Shown here: piece by piece, positions 3,964 through 17,717 of the stretch
How the letters are laid out: each line of letters begins with the position of its first letter
Position numbering within the stretch: position 1 is the stretch's first letter
Source: Acuticoccus mangrovi
GTDB lineage: Bacteria; Pseudomonadota; Alphaproteobacteria; Rhizobiales; Amorphaceae
Length of the DNA stretch: 62,952 nt
NCBI RefSeq assembly: GCF_016411865.1
Contig: NZ_JAEKJA010000022.1
Coordinates: 1-62,952 of the forward strand
Direction of reading: 5' to 3'
Notes under the pieces: generated by a model
Seen by the model: the letters and a program-made list of their open reading frames with translations, nothing else
Databases searched by the model: none
Told to the model about the DNA's origin: nothing
Translations under genes and position numbers: made by a program

Positions 3964-5022
3964 TTATGCTGCCTTTCGAGCGATCGCATGCAAGCCTTCC
4001 GGCCGAAGATGTGTATACCGGCGGAGCATCCTCCAATCTCGGTGACCCGTCACCAGTGCAACCTGCTCAATAGAAAAGCCGGCCTCAAACAAGCGGCTCG
4101 TTCCTTCATAGCGAAGCTCGTGGAAATAGAGGTCATCGATACGCAACGTACGACATGCTCGCCGAAAGGCAGTTCCGACCGATCGGCTATTGTAAGGAAA
4201 GATCCGTCCTACGTGCTGCTATGAAAGTTCGCCCTGCTCGTGAATAATTTCCGCAGCGTCGTAGCCGCTGACGTCTAACAGTGGTATGCGCTGGTTATTC
4301 CCGCTTTTTCTTCGCGGGTCTTTTCGATCACGGATGAGAAGCATCCGCTTCACGGGATCGAAGTCCGTCCATTCGACGCGGCATATCTCGTCCTGGCGCA
4401 TTGCCGTCGCGACAGCAAACCGAATAATCCGCCCCATTGGGATCTGCTGAAGCGGATTTGCGCCGAGTGTTGAGATTAGTTGGTCAAGCTCATCCTGAGT
4501 CGGTCGCCGATCACGCTCATCACCTCTTCCGACGAGTCCGAGACGCGTCAAGGCGATCCGTGCCTGCGAGACAGGCTCAGTCGAGAGGATCACGCCATGC
4601 ACAGCGGCGGCGTCTGAGAGGATCGTCTTGATGTATCCAATGTCGATACCGACCGCAACAGGACCCGCCCCCTCGCAGGCGCGGCCCTTTCCGAAATCTA
4701 TGACCCTCTGCCGGTCGAGATCGCCTAGGCGCACCCGGCCGAGCCGGCGCTCCAGCATAGCGAGACTCGCGGCCTTCGACCGACCGATGGGCTTGCCGAC
4801 TTCCTGGAGGTCTTCTCGGTGTAGACGTGTGAGATCGCCGAGTGTCTTGGCGCCATGGCCAGCGCAGGGGAGGGCAGGCTCGCCGCGATCAATCCGGCGC
4901 TCGATCTCGAGAGCCCATTCCTCCGCGTCCTTGCGGCGACGGAAGGTGCCGTTGACATATTTCCCCTTACGTCGCACCTGGACTGGCCAGGAACCAGACT
5001 TGAGCCGCGTGACGGTGGCCAC
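3964..5022 (-). pseudogene. dusA-associated tyrosine integrase interrupted by TAG
   Basis: The gene encodes a tyrosine recombinase. The N-terminal part (VTRLKSGSWPVQVRRKGKY) resembles the DNA-binding region of dusA-type integrases. The catalytic Arg209 is in ATAMRQDEI. A TAG at 4219-4221 ends the frame after residue 267. The same frame then continues cleanly to the TAA at 3964 and supplies the remaining catalytic residues: His301 and Arg304 (FHELRYEG), His327 (TGHRDW) and the nucleophile Tyr336 (RRYTHL). The full gene would be 352 residues and is broken only by this nonsense codon. A protein ending at the TAG would lack the nucleophile and be inactive. It points away from dusA and starts 111 bases from it, the usual position of an integrase at its own attachment site. 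Confidence 0.85.
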
Positions 5023-10417: not shown

Positions 10418-10500
10418 AGCGGCTTCCAAGGGGGTGCCTTCGGGCTGAGAGGCAGGTGCCGACCCCATGAACCTGATCCGGGTCATGCCGGCGGAGGGAT
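10418..10500 (+). ncRNA. TPP riboswitch (THI element)
   Basis: The conserved THI-box pieces are present in order: GGGGTGCC, GGGCTGAGA, ACCC, TGAACCTGATCCGGGTCATG and the closing GCGGAGGGA. When thiamine pyrophosphate binds, the downstream thiamine genes should be switched off. The expression platform lies in the 125 bases before the thiM-thiE start and contains a tandem repeat described separately. No poly-U terminator is visible there, so control may act on translation or through Rho. Confidence 0.95.
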
Positions 10501-10514
10501 TGGATCATGCCACA

Positions 10515-10590
10515 TCATCGCGCCGAAGGGCGCCGACCAGATTACGCCGAAGGGCGCCGACCAGATCGCGCCGCAGGGTGCCCACCGCGT
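10515..10590 (+). repeat. Three 24-bp tandem repeats in the riboswitch expression platform
   Basis: A unit close to GCGCCGAAGGGCGCCGACCA plus four bases occurs about three times in a row; the first two copies are nearly identical and the third is diverged. Each of the first two copies can form a short hairpin (GCGCC, loop GAAG, GGCGC). The array lies between the TPP aptamer and the ribosome binding site of thiM-thiE. Confidence 0.75.
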
Positions 10591-12876: not shown

Positions 12877-12902
12877 GGAACTCCCTCGCGGTGGGCAACG
12901 TT
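12877..12902 (+). promoter_or_regulatory. Candidate EcfG general-stress promoter
   Basis: GGAAC (12877-12881) and CGTT (12899-12902) are separated by 17 bases. That matches the consensus of the alphaproteobacterial general stress sigma factor EcfG. It lies 45 bases before the 24-residue peptide gene and would drive the whole stress locus. Confidence 0.75.
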
Positions 12903-12946
12903 CTTCGGATAGCAGTCACTCAAATTTCAGTTCGGAAGGAACGCCG

Positions 12947-13021
12947 ATGCACAGCCTTATCTACCTCGTCGGCCTCGTCGTGGTCGTGCTTTTCATTTTG
13001 AGTCTGCTTGGCCTCGCCTGA
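12947..13021 (+). CDS. 24-residue membrane peptide
   Basis: The ATG at 12947 follows GGAAGGAACGCC, a good ribosome binding site, and opens a 24-codon frame. The frame begins MHSLIYLVGLVVVV and is almost wholly hydrophobic, so the product should be a single-pass inner-membrane peptide. Similar one-helix peptides of this size occur next to stress-induced membrane genes in rhizobia. It is the first gene after the EcfG-type promoter, 54 bases before the next start. The function is unknown. Confidence 0.7.
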   Translation: MHSLIYLVGLVVVVLFILSLLGLA

Positions 13022-13075
13022 CGCTTCCGCCGGACTTCAAGAATAACGACCCTGCAATGCTCAGGAGTTCACGAC

Positions 13076-13588
13076 ATGTCGACCAAAGATACCATTGAAC
13101 GGGAAGCGCGATCGGCCGAAGCGAAGATGTCCGAAGCCGCCCAGACCGTGAGAGAGCGCGCCGAAGCGGCGGCCTCCGACGCCCAGCGCGCCGCCCAGTC
13201 CTACGCTGAGGAAGGCAAGCGGACCGCGGCCGGCCACATCGCCGATTTCGCCAACGCCGTCCGCCGGGCCGGGGACGAGCTGTCCACCCGCGACCAGACC
13301 ATCGCCGCCCGCCTCGTCGGCGAGGCCGCCGAGGGTCTCGAACAGGTGGCCCAGTCGATCTCCGACACCTCGGTCGACGACATGGTCGGCTCGGTGCAGC
13401 GCTTCGCGCGGCGCAATCCCGGCGCTTTCGTCGTCGGCTCGGTACTCGCCGGGCTCGCCGTCGGCCGCTTTGTCAAAGCGACATCGGAACGCAGTCACGG
13501 GGCCGAGCCCACGCCCCAGTCGGCGTATGGTGCACCCACGAGTCAGCCGCCGCGCCCCGTCGCGCCCGGCCGACCGGCCATGAAGTGA
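13076..13588 (+). CDS. Amphipathic nutrient-deprivation-type membrane protein
   Basis: The 170-residue protein has an Ala/Glu/Arg-rich helical N-terminal half (EREARSAEAKMSEAAQTVRE) that could form a coiled coil. A single hydrophobic segment follows near residues 125-140 (NPGAFVVGSVLAGLAVGRFV), then a Pro-rich tail. This layout is that of rhizobial nutrient-deprivation-induced proteins and resembles the ribosome- and membrane-associated DUF883 family. It probably coats or anchors to the inner membrane under stress. It lies second in the EcfG-type locus, followed closely by the holin-X-type gene. The exact role is unknown. Confidence 0.75.
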   Translation: MSTKDTIEREARSAEAKMSEAAQTVRERAEAAASDAQRAAQSYAEEGKRTAAGHIADFANAVRRAGDELSTRDQTIAARLVGEAAEGLEQVAQSISDTSVDDMVGSVQRFARRNPGAFVVGSVLAGLAVGRFVKATSERSHGAEPTPQSAYGAPTSQPPRPVAPGRPAMK

Positions 13589-13595
13589 GGTGACC

Positions 13596-14054
13596 ATGAC
13601 CTACAATCCCAACCGCGGCGACCATCCGGGGCCGATGGCCGACACGCTCGCTCACACCCGCTCGGTGCCGGAGCTGATCGCCAAGCTCTTCCGCGACCTC
13701 ACCGACCTCTTCCGCAAGGAAGGGGAGCTGGTGCGGGCGGAGCTGAGCGAGAAGGTGACGCAGCTTCAGGTCGGCGTCGGCAAGATCGCCGCCGGCGGCA
13801 TCACCCTTCTCGTGGCGCTGATCGTGCTCGCCGACGCCCTCGTGGTCGCCGTCGCCGAGCTGATCGGCACGGTGGAGGTCTCCGACAACAACACCGGATG
13901 GGCTGCCCTCATCGTGGGTGGTGTGTTCGCCGCGATCGGCGCCTTCCTGGTGCGCAGCGGGACCACCGATCTCCACGTTGACAATCTCACGCCGGATCGG
14001 ACCGCACAGCAGATGCGCCGAGATGGCGAGCTCGCCAAGGAGCAATTACGATGA
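13596..14054 (+). CDS. Holin-X / phage-holin superfamily III-type membrane protein
   Basis: The 152-residue protein has a soluble amphipathic N-terminal part (SVPELIAKLFRDLTDLFRKEGELVRAEL) and two transmembrane helices (about residues 65-90 and 105-122). This is the layout of the actinobacterial holin-X family (DUF1469-like). Despite the name, chromosomal copies in alphaproteobacteria go with stress proteins and not with prophages. GAGGTGACC precedes ATG 13596; GTG 13590 is a possible earlier start. Its stop overlaps the ATG of the repeat protein that follows. Confidence 0.8.
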   Translation: MTYNPNRGDHPGPMADTLAHTRSVPELIAKLFRDLTDLFRKEGELVRAELSEKVTQLQVGVGKIAAGGITLLVALIVLADALVVAVAELIGTVEVSDNNTGWAALIVGGVFAAIGAFLVRSGTTDLHVDNLTPDRTAQQMRRDGELAKEQLR

Positions 14055-15787
14055 ACCGTCCCACGACCCAGATCGAACGCGAGGTCGAGGCCCAGCGCTA
14101 CGAGGTCGAGGAAACCCTCGACGCGCTCCGCGCCAAGCTCTCGACCGGCCAGATCATCGACAGCGTGACCCGCTCGCTGACGGGCGCGGGTCAGCACGGA
14201 AATGAGTTCATGAACAACCTCGGTCGTCAGGTGAAAGAGAACCCGTTGCCGATCGCGCTGACCGGCCTCGGTCTCGCGTGGCTGCTGATGAGTCAGAACA
14301 AGCCGAAGAAGTCCAATCTTCCGGTACCCTATCAGCCGCTGCCGAACGTACGCCCCTACGACTACGCCCGCTATCGGGCCGACGAGGCGCGCTACGGCGC
14401 CCAGTATGCGCTGGATCGGCTGAAGGCCGGCGCCTACGAGGCGCGCGACACGGCCCGCACGGCGGCGAACGCCATCTACGACGAGGCGATGTTCACCGCC
14501 GATGAGGCGAAGCACGGTCTCGCCTACGCCGTCGAGCGGCTCCGCAACGGCGCCTATGCCGCGTCCTCGAGCGCCGGCGACGGAGTGCGCTCCGCCTATG
14601 ATCGCGCCCGCTTCGCTTCGGACGAGGCGGCCCACGGCCTGAAATATGCCGCGGATCAGCTGAAGGCCGGCGCCTACCGGATCGAAGCGACGGCCGGCGA
14701 GGCCGCGGGGGTGATCTACGATCAGGCCCGCTTCGCCGCGGACGAGGCCAAGCACGGCGCCCAATATGCCGCCGAGCGGCTGAAGAGCGGCAGCTATGCC
14801 GCCTCCGCGAGCCTAGAGGCCGGCGCGCGTGCCGCCTACGACCAGGCCCGCTTTGCCGCTGACGAGGCCTCCCACGGTGTCGACTATGCCGTCGACAAGC
14901 TGAAGTCGGGCGCCTATCGGGTATCCGCGCTCGCGGCCGGTGCCGCGGGTGCGGCCTACGACCAGGCCCGCTTTGCCGCCGACGAGGCGCAGCACGGGGC
15001 CGAGTATGCCGCCGACCGGCTCAAGGCCGGCGCCTACGAGGTGTCGGATGCCGCCCGCGGCGTGGCCCGCGCCGTCTACGATCAGGCCCGTTTCGCCGCC
15101 GACGAGGCGAGCCACGGCGCCCGCTACGCCGTCGATCAGCTGAAGGCCGGCGCCTACAGCGTGCAGGACGGCGCATACCAGGTCGCCGACGTTCTCTACG
15201 ATCAGGCCCGGCTGATGGCCGACGAGGCGCGCCACGGCGCCGCCTACGTGAGCGACCGGCTGAAGAGCGGCGCCTACGCCGTGTCGAGCGCGGCGAGCCA
15301 GGCCTACGACAGCGCTTACGAGGCGGCGGCGGAGGCTGCTCACACCGCCAACGCCTACGGCCGGCGGGCGCGCCGCAATGTGGTGGACTTCATCACCGAG
15401 GAGCCGATCATCGCCGCCGCCATCGGGCTCGCGGCGGGTGCCGCGATCGGCGCGCTGCTGCCCTCCACCCGCCGCGAGGACGAGTGGGTCGGCCCCTATC
15501 GCGACAACCTGCGCGACGAGGCCTACGGCTACGCCACCGACAAGGTCCACCAGGCCGAAGAGGCGGCGGAGCACTCCTACGAGGCCGCCAAGGCGGAGGC
15601 CAAGAAGGAGGGGCTTATGCCCTCCGAGGACGGGCCGACGCTCGCCGAACGCGCCGAGAAGGTGGTGAAGGCGGCGACGGAAACCGCCGAGGCCGACCTC
15701 TCGGGCGAGGCCAAGGGCGAGGACGCGAAGGGTTCTGCCAAGAGCGCCCCGAAGCCGACGAAGGCGCCGGAGAAGGCCAAGGCCTGA
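14051..15787 (+). CDS. DUF3618 protein with eight 40-residue tandem repeats
   Basis: The 578-residue protein starts with a DUF3618 domain (TQIEREVEAQRYEVEETLDA, residues 6-25). A hydrophobic helix follows at about 72-87 (PLPIALTGLGLAWLLM). Residues 103-422 are eight repeats of exactly 40 residues built on YDQARFAADEA, then HGA, YA, DRLKAGAY and a variable Ala-rich linker, with a decayed ninth copy after them. A glycine-zipper helix (EEPIIAAAIGLAAGAAIGAL, 450-469) precedes a Lys/Glu/Ala-rich, LEA-like tail. I infer a helical rod fixed to the membrane at both ends, perhaps a shield or spacer under osmotic or desiccation stress. The DUF3618 family is normally short, so the repeat insertion is the odd feature. 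It is coupled to the holin-X-type gene (ATGA) and ends at a strong terminator. Confidence 0.88.
   Translation: MNRPTTQIEREVEAQRYEVEETLDALRAKLSTGQIIDSVTRSLTGAGQHGNEFMNNLGRQVKENPLPIALTGLGLAWLLMSQNKPKKSNLPVPYQPLPNVRPYDYARYRADEARYGAQYALDRLKAGAYEARDTARTAANAIYDEAMFTADEAKHGLAYAVERLRNGAYAASSSAGDGVRSAYDRARFASDEAAHGLKYAADQLKAGAYRIEATAGEAAGVIYDQARFAADEAKHGAQYAAERLKSGSYAASASLEAGARAAYDQARFAADEASHGVDYAVDKLKSGAYRVSALAAGAAGAAYDQARFAADEAQHGAEYAADRLKAGAYEVSDAARGVARAVYDQARFAADEASHGARYAVDQLKAGAYSVQDGAYQVADVLYDQARLMADEARHGAAYVSDRLKSGAYAVSSAASQAYDSAYEAAAEAAHTANAYGRRARRNVVDFITEEPIIAAAIGLAAGAAIGALLPSTRREDEWVGPYRDNLRDEAYGYATDKVHQAEEAAEHSYEAAKAEAKKEGLMPSEDGPTLAERAEKVVKAATETAEADLSGEAKGEDAKGSAKSAPKPTKAPEKAKA
14357..15316 (+). 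repeat. Eight in-frame 120-bp tandem repeats
   Basis: Each unit begins with a TAY Tyr codon, at 14357, 14477, 14597, 14717, 14837, 14957, 15077 and 15197, so the period is exactly 120 bases. Units 4 to 7 are the most alike (YDQARFAADEA), and units 1, 2 and 8 are more diverged. This suggests that the array grew from its middle. A decayed ninth unit starts at 15317. Confidence 0.95.
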
Positions 15788-15817
15788 CCCGCTCGGAGGC
15801 AGAGCGATCGGTGGAAC

Positions 15818-15840
15818 AAGGGGCGCTTCGGCGCCCCTTT
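15818..15840 (+). terminator. Rho-independent terminator after the stress operon
   Basis: A perfect nine-base stem (AAGGGGCGC / GCGCCCCTT) closes on a stable TTCG loop and ends in a short T run. It lies 31 bases after the stop of the repeat protein and separates this operon from the MscS gene. Confidence 0.85.
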
Positions 15841-15853
15841 CGTCGTCCTGGGC

Positions 15854-15878
15854 GGAACGCTTCGCCCTCCCGTGCGTC
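15854..15878 (+). promoter_or_regulatory. Weaker EcfG-like promoter before the MscS gene
   Basis: GGAAC (15854-15858) is followed after 16 bases by CGTC (15875-15878), one base off the CGTT consensus. It lies 42 bases before the MscS start, just after the terminator, so the channel may share general-stress control with the upstream operon. Confidence 0.45.
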
Positions 15879-15920
15879 GACTGAGTGGCGGTAACGCCGC
15901 AAGCCGGAACGGGAGACGAC

Positions 15921-17717
15921 ATGGCCACCAACGACACGGCGACCAAGACGAGGGCGAGCGGGATCGTGGCGCCACTTCTCTGCGCGATCGTCGCCTTCAT
16001 CGTCGCGATGTCCGGCGCGCGGGCCCAGGAGGCACCCGTCGCCTTCGAGGTGGAGACGCTGAACGCCGGCCTCGGCGCGCCGCCCGAGCGGCTCGACCGC
16101 TCGACTCCGCGCTCGGCGTTGGAGGGCTTCCGCCGCCTCACCGATCGCGGCGACTATGCGAGCGCCGCCCACCTTCTCGACCTCGACGGCATCGAGCCCG
16201 GCGAGCAGCGCGAGGAGGGAGCGCGCCTCGCCCGCCGGCTCGCCTACGTGATCGAGCGCAAGGTGCCGCTCGACTACGCCGCCATCTCCGACCGGCCCGA
16301 TGGCATGGACACCACCGGCAGCGACCGAGAGCCGATGGTGGGCGAGCCGCGCAAGAGCCTCCTTCTCGGCACCCTCGAGGTGGACCCGTTCGCCGTATCG
16401 ATCCGCCTCAACCGCATCGCCGCGTCGGGGGAGGCGCCGGTGTGGGTGTTCGCCCAGCAGACCGTCGACCACATCGACACGCTCTACGCCGCCTTCGGGC
16501 CGACGGAGTTCGAGAAGTGGCTGCCGAGCGGCCTCAGGAGCGAGGCGTTCTGGGGCATCCTGTGGTGGGAGCTCATCACCGTTCCCCTCATTCTCGCGGC
16601 CGTTGCGGCGATCGCCGTGTTTTTGTTCAAGCTCTTGAGCGCGCTCGCGGTGCGCGTGCCGGGGGAGGGGCTGAAGGCGGGCATCCGCCGCGCGCGTCTG
16701 CCCGTCATCCTGCTCGCCCTCGGCGTCTTCCTGGAGACGATCGTCTCCGCTCTCTTCGTGTTCTCCGCGCGCACCTCGCTGACGATCTCCACGCTGTTCT
16801 GGACGCTCATCGTCCTGGCGCTCGTCTACGGCGTGTCGCGGGTGCTCGACACGATCATCGACGTCACCTCCAACCGCTATCTCGCCACCATCGACGATCC
16901 CGGAAACACCAGCGCCCGGCGGTGGTATACCAACCTTTCGGCGGCGAAGCGCATCGGGGTGATGCTGGTGATCATCATTGGCCTCGCCGCGGCCTTCTCA
17001 TCGCTCAACGTGTTCTCGTCGTTCGGGCTGAGCCTCCTCGTCTCCGCCGGCGTGGCGACGGCGACGTTCGGCCTCGCGGCACAGGCGGTGCTCGGCAACA
17101 TCTTCGCCTCGCTGCAGCTCGCCCTCGCCAAGCCCATCCGCATCGGCGACGCCGTCTACTACGACGATCATTGGGCCTACGTGGAGCAGATCAACTACAC
17201 CTACGTGCAGCTGCGGACCTGGGACCAGAAGCGCTTCATCGTGCCGGTGAAGCACTTCGTGTCGAACCCCTTCGAGAACTGGACGATGGCCGACCCGCAG
17301 ATGATCCTGCCGGTGCACCTGACGCTCGACCACCGCACCGACGTGGACGCGCTGCGACGCATCTTCGAGGACTTCGCGCCGCGGGATCCCGACTGGCTGG
17401 CGGGAGCGGAGGCGAAGGTGCAGGTGATCGGCCAGGATAGCGAGGGCATCGCGGTGCGCTTTTACTGCAGCGCCGAGAACCCGACGGCGGCCTGGGACCT
17501 CCACTGCCGCGTGCGCGAGCGCCTCCTCGCCGAGATCGCGGCGATGGAGCAGCCCTCGATGCTGCCGCGCGATCGCGTGGCGCTGGTGGAGAACCCGCCG
17601 AGCCGCGGTGGCGCGGGTGCTCGCCGCGGCGGCCGGCCGGCGCACGAGGCACGGCGCGGCGGCGAGGCGGACGGCCCCGACGGCGAGGCGGTGGGGAGCG
17701 CCGAGGCCGCCGAGTAG
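15921..17717 (+). CDS. MscS-family mechanosensitive channel with periplasmic N-terminal domain
   Basis: The 598-residue protein begins with a signal or anchor helix (VAPLLCAIVAFIVAMSGARAQ). A soluble region of about 170 residues follows (presumably periplasmic), then several membrane helices. The MscS pore and beta domain start near LLVSAGVATATFGLAAQAVLG, with NIFASLQLALAKPIRIGD. The pore helix has the Gly/Ala packing typical of MscS. The C-terminal tail is disordered (GGAGARRGGRPAHEARRGG). Such channels release solutes on osmotic downshock. I chose ATG 15921 because CGGGAGACGAC precedes it; 15885 is a longer alternative. It follows the stress operon and its terminator. Confidence 0.92.
   Translation: MATNDTATKTRASGIVAPLLCAIVAFIVAMSGARAQEAPVAFEVETLNAGLGAPPERLDRSTPRSALEGFRRLTDRGDYASAAHLLDLDGIEPGEQREEGARLARRLAYVIERKVPLDYAAISDRPDGMDTTGSDREPMVGEPRKSLLLGTLEVDPFAVSIRLNRIAASGEAPVWVFAQQTVDHIDTLYAAFGPTEFEKWLPSGLRSEAFWGILWWELITVPLILAAVAAIAVFLFKLLSALAVRVPGEGLKAGIRRARLPVILLALGVFLETIVSALFVFSARTSLTISTLFWTLIVLALVYGVSRVLDTIIDVTSNRYLATIDDPGNTSARRWYTNLSAAKRIGVMLVIIIGLAAAFSSLNVFSSFGLSLLVSAGVATATFGLAAQAVLGNIFASLQLALAKPIRIGDAVYYDDHWAYVEQINYTYVQLRTWDQKRFIVPVKHFVSNPFENWTMADPQMILPVHLTLDHRTDVDALRRIFEDFAPRDPDWLAGAEAKVQVIGQDSEGIAVRFYCSAENPTAAWDLHCRVRERLLAEIAAMEQPSMLPRDRVALVENPPSRGGAGARRGGRPAHEARRGGEADGPDGEAVGSAEAAE

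Follow-up and report, generated by a model that had tools for sequence, protein, structure and literature searches.

In Escherichia coli, the yqjCDEK operon encodes YqjD (family DUF883), YqjE (PF07332) and YqjK (PF13997), and sigma-S is one of the regulators of yqjDE. CsrA represses the operon during growth, with relief at stationary-phase entry; YqjD is a tail-anchored membrane protein that binds ribosomes, and overexpression of YqjD or YqjE halts growth (PMC10746276; this and the other papers cited were drawn on in excerpt, and statements on them apply to those excerpts). In Pseudomonas aeruginosa, AlgU controls the operon PA3040-3042, which is induced under envelope stress, reaches its strongest expression in stationary phase and is tied to biofilm (PMC11302039). 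In Actinoplanes, the DUF3618/Holin-X pairs ACSP50_3381-3382 and 4921-4922 are strongly up-regulated on expression of the alternative sigma factor sigma-H (PMC11205660). The thread common to these systems appears to be a stress or growth-phase regulator that drives a membrane-anchored helical protein together with a Holin-X partner. Here we analyzed a 62,952-nucleotide stretch of Acuticoccus mangrovi (contig NZ_JAEKJA010000022.1, positions 1 to 62,952; hereafter the window), in which genes for a 24-residue peptide (pep24), a helical protein with the working name ndi, a Holin-X protein and a DUF3618 protein follow a promoter of the type read by the general stress sigma factor EcfG. At about even odds (roughly 0.5), we read them as an EcfG-controlled inner-membrane stress module of the YqjD-YqjE type with a helical scaffold.

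The operon resembles yqjCDEK in its order, namely a tail-anchored helical protein, then a PF07332 protein, then an overlapping third gene. It differs in that the E. coli operon has no DUF3618, no repeats and regulators other than EcfG; YqjK is short and showed no similarity to the DUF3618 profile (0.4%), and YqjD ends at its membrane segment, whereas the window ndi continues into a 37-residue tail. PA3040-3042 likewise runs from a DUF883 gene through a YqjE-like gene to a third gene, but PA3042 has no recognized domain, and the excerpts mention no repeat rod. In the Actinoplanes pairs, which come from another phylum, DUF3618 likewise adjoins Holin-X, judged by locus tag, but carries the lower tag, and no ndi is named in the excerpts. 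These relatives in print overturn one statement of an earlier interpretation made from the letters of the window (the sequence-only reading), which knew of no described system with this make-up. The open-licence literature, taken without supplementary regulon tables and most subscription papers, yielded no account of the operon in Alphaproteobacteria and nowhere described DUF3618 as a relative of DUF883; no account of the 40-residue array surfaced there either, in searches none of which was aimed at the array itself.

Conservation of the promoter and of the gene order

We compared the upstream regions of the operon across the genus (loci are given by L numbers, genomes by G numbers). The motif GGAAC-N17-CGTT was found 66-72 bases upstream of the 24-codon gene in the window and in L047-L051. 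While its nine specified bases did not vary among these six loci, mean pairwise identity was 36% in the 17-base spacer, 26% in the 30-base left flank and 38% in the right flank. The strict motif was present at 7/8 genus loci carrying the ndi-HolinX-DUF3618 core (the trio); in the seventh, L070, the spacer is N16 and the motif lies 92 bases upstream of ndi. A wider count covered 36 loci (8 from the genus and 28 others; ndi frames at E 1e-8, loci with identical 120 bases upstream merged, L090 left out with fewer than 300 bases). The relaxed form GGAAC-N16/17-NGTT occurred upstream of ndi at 20/36 loci in sense, compared with 1 in antisense and 1 for the reversed control, and the strict form at 9, 1 and 1, respectively. 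The genome also holds the regulators of an EcfG regulon: NepR (C1:610128-610226) adjoins an ECF sigma factor, which we named EcfG from its position beside NepR and PhyR, and a PhyR, with a two-way GGAAC-N16-CGTT site between NepR and PhyR. For EcfG, the literature gives the motif GGAAC-N16-CGTT in both Rhizobium etli (PMC3892343) and Sphingopyxis (PMC7083833), and GGAAC-N17-20-GTT in Sphingomonas (PMC6599016). That pep24, ndi, Holin-X and DUF3618 lie downstream of one EcfG-type promoter is thus well supported by positional conservation, in agreement with the single transcription unit proposed in the sequence-only reading.

Within the genus, the ndi-HolinX-DUF3618 order was found in 7/8 genomes (our own included), with G006 carrying it twice, giving eight trio loci. 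Named contigs of A. kalidii and A. yangtzensis likewise carry the operon. The second G006 trio (L071, G006:C258) is divergent and lacks the EcfG motif, the peptide and MscS. In the remaining genome, G001 (89% complete), one Holin-X gene lies directly behind thiD, with no ndi or DUF3618 match within the stretch examined, and a second is located at the end of a contig. In the window and at L050, L051 and L070, thiD immediately precedes the operon. At L047 the two are about 3.6 kb apart in the same order, and at L049 the operon lies on the other side of the thiamine genes; no thiamine genes were seen in the stretch examined of L048.

The core order also reached well beyond the genus, in support of the sequence-only reading. 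We fetched L087-L123 with the DUF3618 profile, so that they show the neighbors of DUF3618. The full trio was present at 13/13 named loci (L087-L099, including Bauldia, Arsenicitalea, Mesorhizobium, Sulfitobacter and a Devosia MAG) and at 23/24 further loci (L100-L123), counts in which L087-L089, L091, L094, L100-L104 and L118 repeat earlier places, L113 and L120 are one place, and L117 and L123 are one cluster. At L117 and L122 a DUF3618 gene lies upstream of ndi, and at L075 (G013:C4) the order is DUF3618, ndi, Holin-X and a further rod-like gene, so that the operon there is either rearranged or doubled. Since the DUF3618 profile matched 18/150 genomes drawn from the order, the operon is widespread yet patchy.

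A phylum-wide PF07332 search matched 72/200 genomes at E 0.001, of which 49 exceeded the curated cut-off. At the 28 best-scoring new Holin-X loci (L180-L207; L012, our own, and L156 counted separately, the remaining places over the cut-off left out), a DUF883 gene adjoined 12 and an ndi/DUF3618 pair adjoined 16. Above the cut-off, the class search added 11 loci (L151-L159, L175, L176). The trio was complete at five of them and lacked ndi at two; another two had DUF883 only, one had Holin-X alone, and at one a DUF883 gene accompanied ndi while DUF3618 was missing. A further 18 class loci below the cut-off had a DUF883 match in 8 cases and none in 10. L156 has Holin-X and DUF3618 with no ndi in the stretch examined. 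Starting from DUF883 places in 150 genomes, PF07332 followed within 500 bp at 16/25 places, in 16/19 genomes, and both kinds of operon occurred together in four genomes (G175, G195, G198 and G270). At L157 (G176), Holin-X lies between an ndi-like gene (DUF883 profile, 8e-6) and another DUF883-like gene, possibly a link between the two kinds.

Protein families and the repeat rod

The window Holin-X protein matched PF07332 (E 1.4e-21) about as E. coli YqjE did (E 3.5e-21), both well above the family cut-off. The ndi gene (170 codons) encodes a single membrane segment followed by the tail, and its label of nutrient-deprivation type in the sequence-only reading was not borne out, with no Pfam or NCBIfam match to such a family at E 0.1. 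We then aligned profiles of 51 ndi, 43 DUF3618 and 35 DUF883 sequences, with E-values that apply to each pair and not to a database. The results showed that ndi aligned with DUF883 at 95.8% (P 7e-9) and DUF3618 with DUF883 at 96.2% (P 2.5e-9), while five column shuffles each gave at most 0.3% and reversed profiles 27% (ndi) and 4.8% (DUF3618). Compared directly, ndi and DUF3618 scored 1.5% with small sets and 81.2% with the larger ones. These alignments suggest that ndi and the DUF3618 domain are remote relatives of DUF883/YqjD. Compared with a YqjDE operon, the locus has a PF07332 protein over the cut-off and, upstream of it, a protein that does not reach the DUF883 or DUF883_C cut-off but combines remote DUF883 kinship with a C-terminal tail anchor. 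A sequence search of the PDB with the ndi profile returned solely designed coiled coils (5e-4 to 5e-3), and the rod and Holin-X profiles gave no match there.

The third core protein carries a DUF3618 domain (PF12277, E 2e-6; 30.6 and 28.4 bits, compared with a curated cut-off of 24.9). Its N-terminal anchor falls under the hydropathy cut used for membrane segments; N64, P65, P67, W77 and L78 are invariant in 11 sequences. The array consists of eight units at exact 40-residue spacing, and its hydrophobic moment peaked at 99 degrees per residue, which equals 40 residues per 11 turns; the moment of 0.353 was reached by 6/20000 permutations of unit columns. By one search pattern, L047, L048, L049, L050 and L051 have 9, 9, 6, 3 and 6 units, so that unit number spans 3-9 among the six genus rods. 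The L047-L051 rods all peaked at 99 degrees, and so did five homologues without 40-residue units. L070 encodes a DUF3618 protein of just 282 residues, without 40-residue units by the pattern used. On a helical wheel of 41 units, the non-polar face was 90% hydrophobic, Ala or Gly, basic residues clustered on one flank, and Gly14 and Gly25, both on the non-polar face, were invariant. These units were chosen by a pattern fixing Asp2, Asp9 and Glu10, so constancy there carries no weight, whereas the two glycines were left unfixed. Because 40 residues make eleven helical turns, the units present one Ala/Gly face, which fits a continuous helix packing tightly on another helix or lying shallowly on a membrane. 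The 40-residue units probably form a helical rod, in line with the membrane rod of the sequence-only reading.

The 24-residue open reading frame (ORF) behaves like a gene, given its excess of synonymous (178) over non-synonymous (25) codon differences (15 pairs from six orthologues, first codon excluded). At L070 the peptide is divergent and the motif lies 3' of it. The peptide was also seen in other families (L046, 9313-9384; L074, 6586-6657), about 1.6 kb upstream of ndi or directly past the last gene, and may hence be an independent small protein.

Features of the locus and its neighbors

All elements of the layout described in the sequence-only reading were located (promoter, 24-residue ORF, ndi, Holin-X, DUF3618, hairpin and MscS), including the four-base overlap of the Holin-X and DUF3618 genes, which is the ATGA at 14051-14054.

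Table 1. Positions of the operon, its control sites and the adjoining channel gene in the window.
Feature	Positions	Strand	Basis or remark
EcfG-type promoter, GGAAC-N17-CGTT	12877..12902	+	Nine motif bases identical across six genus loci
pep24, gene for a hydrophobic 24-residue peptide	12947..13021	+	Synonymous excess; orthologues L047-L051, a weaker one L070
ndi, helical protein with a single C-terminal membrane segment (residues about 115-133)	13076..13588	+	Putative remote relative of DUF883/YqjD
Holin-X protein, PF07332, two membrane segments	13596..14054	+	Pfam family shared with E. coli YqjE
DUF3618 rod protein, 578 residues	14051..15787	+	PF12277 match
DUF3618 domain of the rod protein	14063..14188	+	PF12277 match
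N-terminal anchor of the rod, NPLPIALTGLGLAWLLM	14240..14296	+	Placed by eye; invariant residues
Eight 40-residue repeats of the rod (residues 103-422)	14357..15316	+	
C-terminal Gly-rich anchor of the rod (residues about 454-472)	15410..15466	+	Hydropathy; weak profile link to DUF883
Terminator hairpin AAGGGGCGC-TTCG-GCGCCCCTT and short T run	15818..15840	+	Like hairpins in L047-L050
EcfG-like site upstream of mscS, GGAAC-N16-CGTC	15854..15878	+	One base off consensus
MscS-type channel gene, local companion outside the conserved core	15921..17717	+	PF00924

Behind the operon, where the sequence-only reading placed a strong terminator, a 9-pair hairpin is present (15818-15839, -23.4 kcal/mol). 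Its z-score depended on the length of the cut, at -3.5 for 41 bases and no more than -1.7 for 51 bases, and its T run is three bases long, which is why the terminator scan missed it. Like hairpins, read by eye, occur in L047-L050 (2/4 share the loop) and are followed by six or seven T.

The product of the next gene contains the MS_channel beta domain (PF00924, E 5.9e-14). The separate EcfG-like promoter proposed for it was recovered, since GGAAC-N16/17-NGT[TC] lies upstream of mscS at 4/5 genus loci, compared with 0/5 in antisense and 0/5 reversed, at a background of 0.021 per 250 bp. Its membership of the unit, which had also been proposed, was not supported: MscS follows the trio at only 5/8 genus trio loci. 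Of the two Bauldia copies, one has it, while the stretches examined of the other named loci showed none. By its site and distribution, MscS appears to be a co-regulated neighbor in most of the genus and not part of the core. EcfG-dependent MscS channels are known from Sphingomonas melonis (PMC6599016) and Sphingopyxis granuli (PMC7083833); these belong to the general stress regulon, as the window gene may, but no link to a Holin-X/DUF3618 operon is described in the excerpts.

Upstream of the operon, a TPP riboswitch (RF00059, 68.5 bits; window 10420-10586), followed directly by 2.9 copies of a 24-base tandem repeat, lies ahead of two genes that, by eye, look like a ThiM-ThiE fusion and thiD. 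Elsewhere in the genome, one further Holin-X candidate (G000:C63:411796) scored 21.6 bits, under the cut-off, and was rejected; judged by eye, it resembles a LapA-type protein and its gene follows one similar to ihfB.

Proposed mechanism and alternatives

The regulation of the operon is well supported; its mechanism we infer as follows. EcfG would switch the module on. The rod would be a long alpha-helix held in the inner membrane at both ends, its 320 residues spanning about 48 nm if the helix is continuous, and would lie along the membrane or pack on partner helices through its Ala/Gly face. Together with ndi and the two-span Holin-X protein, it may form a scaffold that stiffens or organizes the membrane, perhaps holding ribosomes as YqjD does, and acts at growth arrest or turgor change. 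The most economical reading would be an inner-membrane assembly made at growth arrest or envelope strain; the roles in envelope stress and in osmotic or starvation survival, named in the sequence-only reading, fit such an assembly only by inference.

Several results weigh against an EcfG-controlled module of the YqjD-YqjE type. For the promoter, the exact motif matched 49 times in the 5.46 Mb genome and its reversed pattern 41 times; a lone match proves nothing without genome-wide enrichment, and the promoter case therefore rests on conservation. Outside the genus, the relaxed motif was found in sense at 13/28 loci and the strict motif at 2/28, 16/36 loci lack even the relaxed motif, and L071 has neither form. 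For the kinship, Holin-X aligned to the single YqjE sequence at only 0.8%, smaller sequence sets lowered the DUF883 scores of ndi and DUF3618 to 87.6% and 70.1%, respectively, and the P-values of these comparisons are single-pair rather than database-wide. The likeness of ndi to DUF883 was carried more by the anchor (93.3% over 32 columns) than by the N half alone (74.6% over 82 columns). The C-terminal anchor of the rod aligned with DUF883 at 94.6%, but its reversed control reached 68.6%, and this link is accordingly counted as weak. The curated Pfam models DUF883 and DUF883_C left the window ndi and DUF3618 proteins unmatched up to E 0.1, with a DUF883 match in 1/13 ndi members (0.049); we hence term them remote relatives and not DUF883 members. 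For the rod, the permutation test gave 100, 2, 32 and 9 of 20000 for L048, L049, L050 and L051, L047 has one 36-residue spacing (ten turns) and stood outside the test, and single repeats were no more amphipathic over 18 residues than shuffles, so that only the phase of the whole array stands out. Finally, overexpression of PA3040 and PA3041 did not inhibit growth, unlike that of E. coli YqjD and YqjE (PMC11302039), which indicates that functions differ within the family.

The alignment of ndi with DUF883 would also suit a role in ribosome hibernation or tethering, in which ndi binds ribosomes at the membrane like YqjD and the rod adds docking sites. We consider this unlikely: ndi residues 1-112 carry a net charge of -5 and the repeat array -9, unlike typical ribosome binders, and the better-kept part of ndi is its anchor and not the N-terminal part.

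Slightly less probable is a protectant similar to late embryogenesis abundant (LEA) proteins or apolipoproteins, with ndi and the rod mostly unfolded in water and forming amphipathic helices on dehydrating membranes. At E <=0.1, the apolipoprotein Pfam model matched 11/13 ndi members (best 1.9e-6) and apolipophorin-III matched 3 (best 3.9e-5), and the Ala/Gly-rich face is only weakly hydrophobic. However, helical proteins of simple composition match apolipoprotein models easily, YqjD among them (0.0089), and the match of the window ndi fell below the cut-off. The regular 40-residue spacing and the two invariant Gly columns are tighter than LEA repeats, and anchors at both rod ends argue for a fixed place.

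A phage-derived cassette for holin-driven lysis or secretion is very improbable. The family name Holin-X points that way, as do weak matches to phage families lacking assigned function (0.0065 for ndi, 0.00086 for the rod), but the Holin-X protein had no PHROG match at E 0.01, no lysin is encoded among the four genes, PF07332 includes the chromosomal YqjE, and the gene order is kept across many genera. With no PHROG match and YqjE in its family, the Holin-X protein is unlikely to be a lysis holin. Least credible of all is a set of unrelated neighbors with a chance promoter match, for while chance alone would give a motif match in a stretch of 63 kb (1.56 expected for the relaxed form), order and motif are kept across genera, and the antisense and reversed counts stayed close to zero.

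Returning to the scaffold module, we also consider a broader and more doubtful extension, in which DUF3618 proteins would be length-tunable, doubly anchored inner-membrane rulers. As each 40-residue unit makes eleven turns, such a rod could be extended unit by unit while its packing face kept the same direction. With YqjD- and YqjE-like partners, these rulers would constitute a general scaffold system placed separately under stress regulation in unrelated bacteria, by EcfG here, AlgU in Pseudomonas, sigma-H in Actinoplanes, and CsrA, together with sigma-S, in E. coli.

For the family as a whole, the alphaproteobacterial ndi-HolinX-DUF3618 operon would be a cousin of yqjDE with a distinct third part, a longer-armed version of the same design. 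Because Holin-X adjoins a DUF883-like or ndi gene at all 28 best-scoring phylum loci, a stress-induced inner-membrane assembly may serve as the common frame for these operons, and since a single genus has rods of 3 up to 9 units, it is the rod that makes this idea testable.

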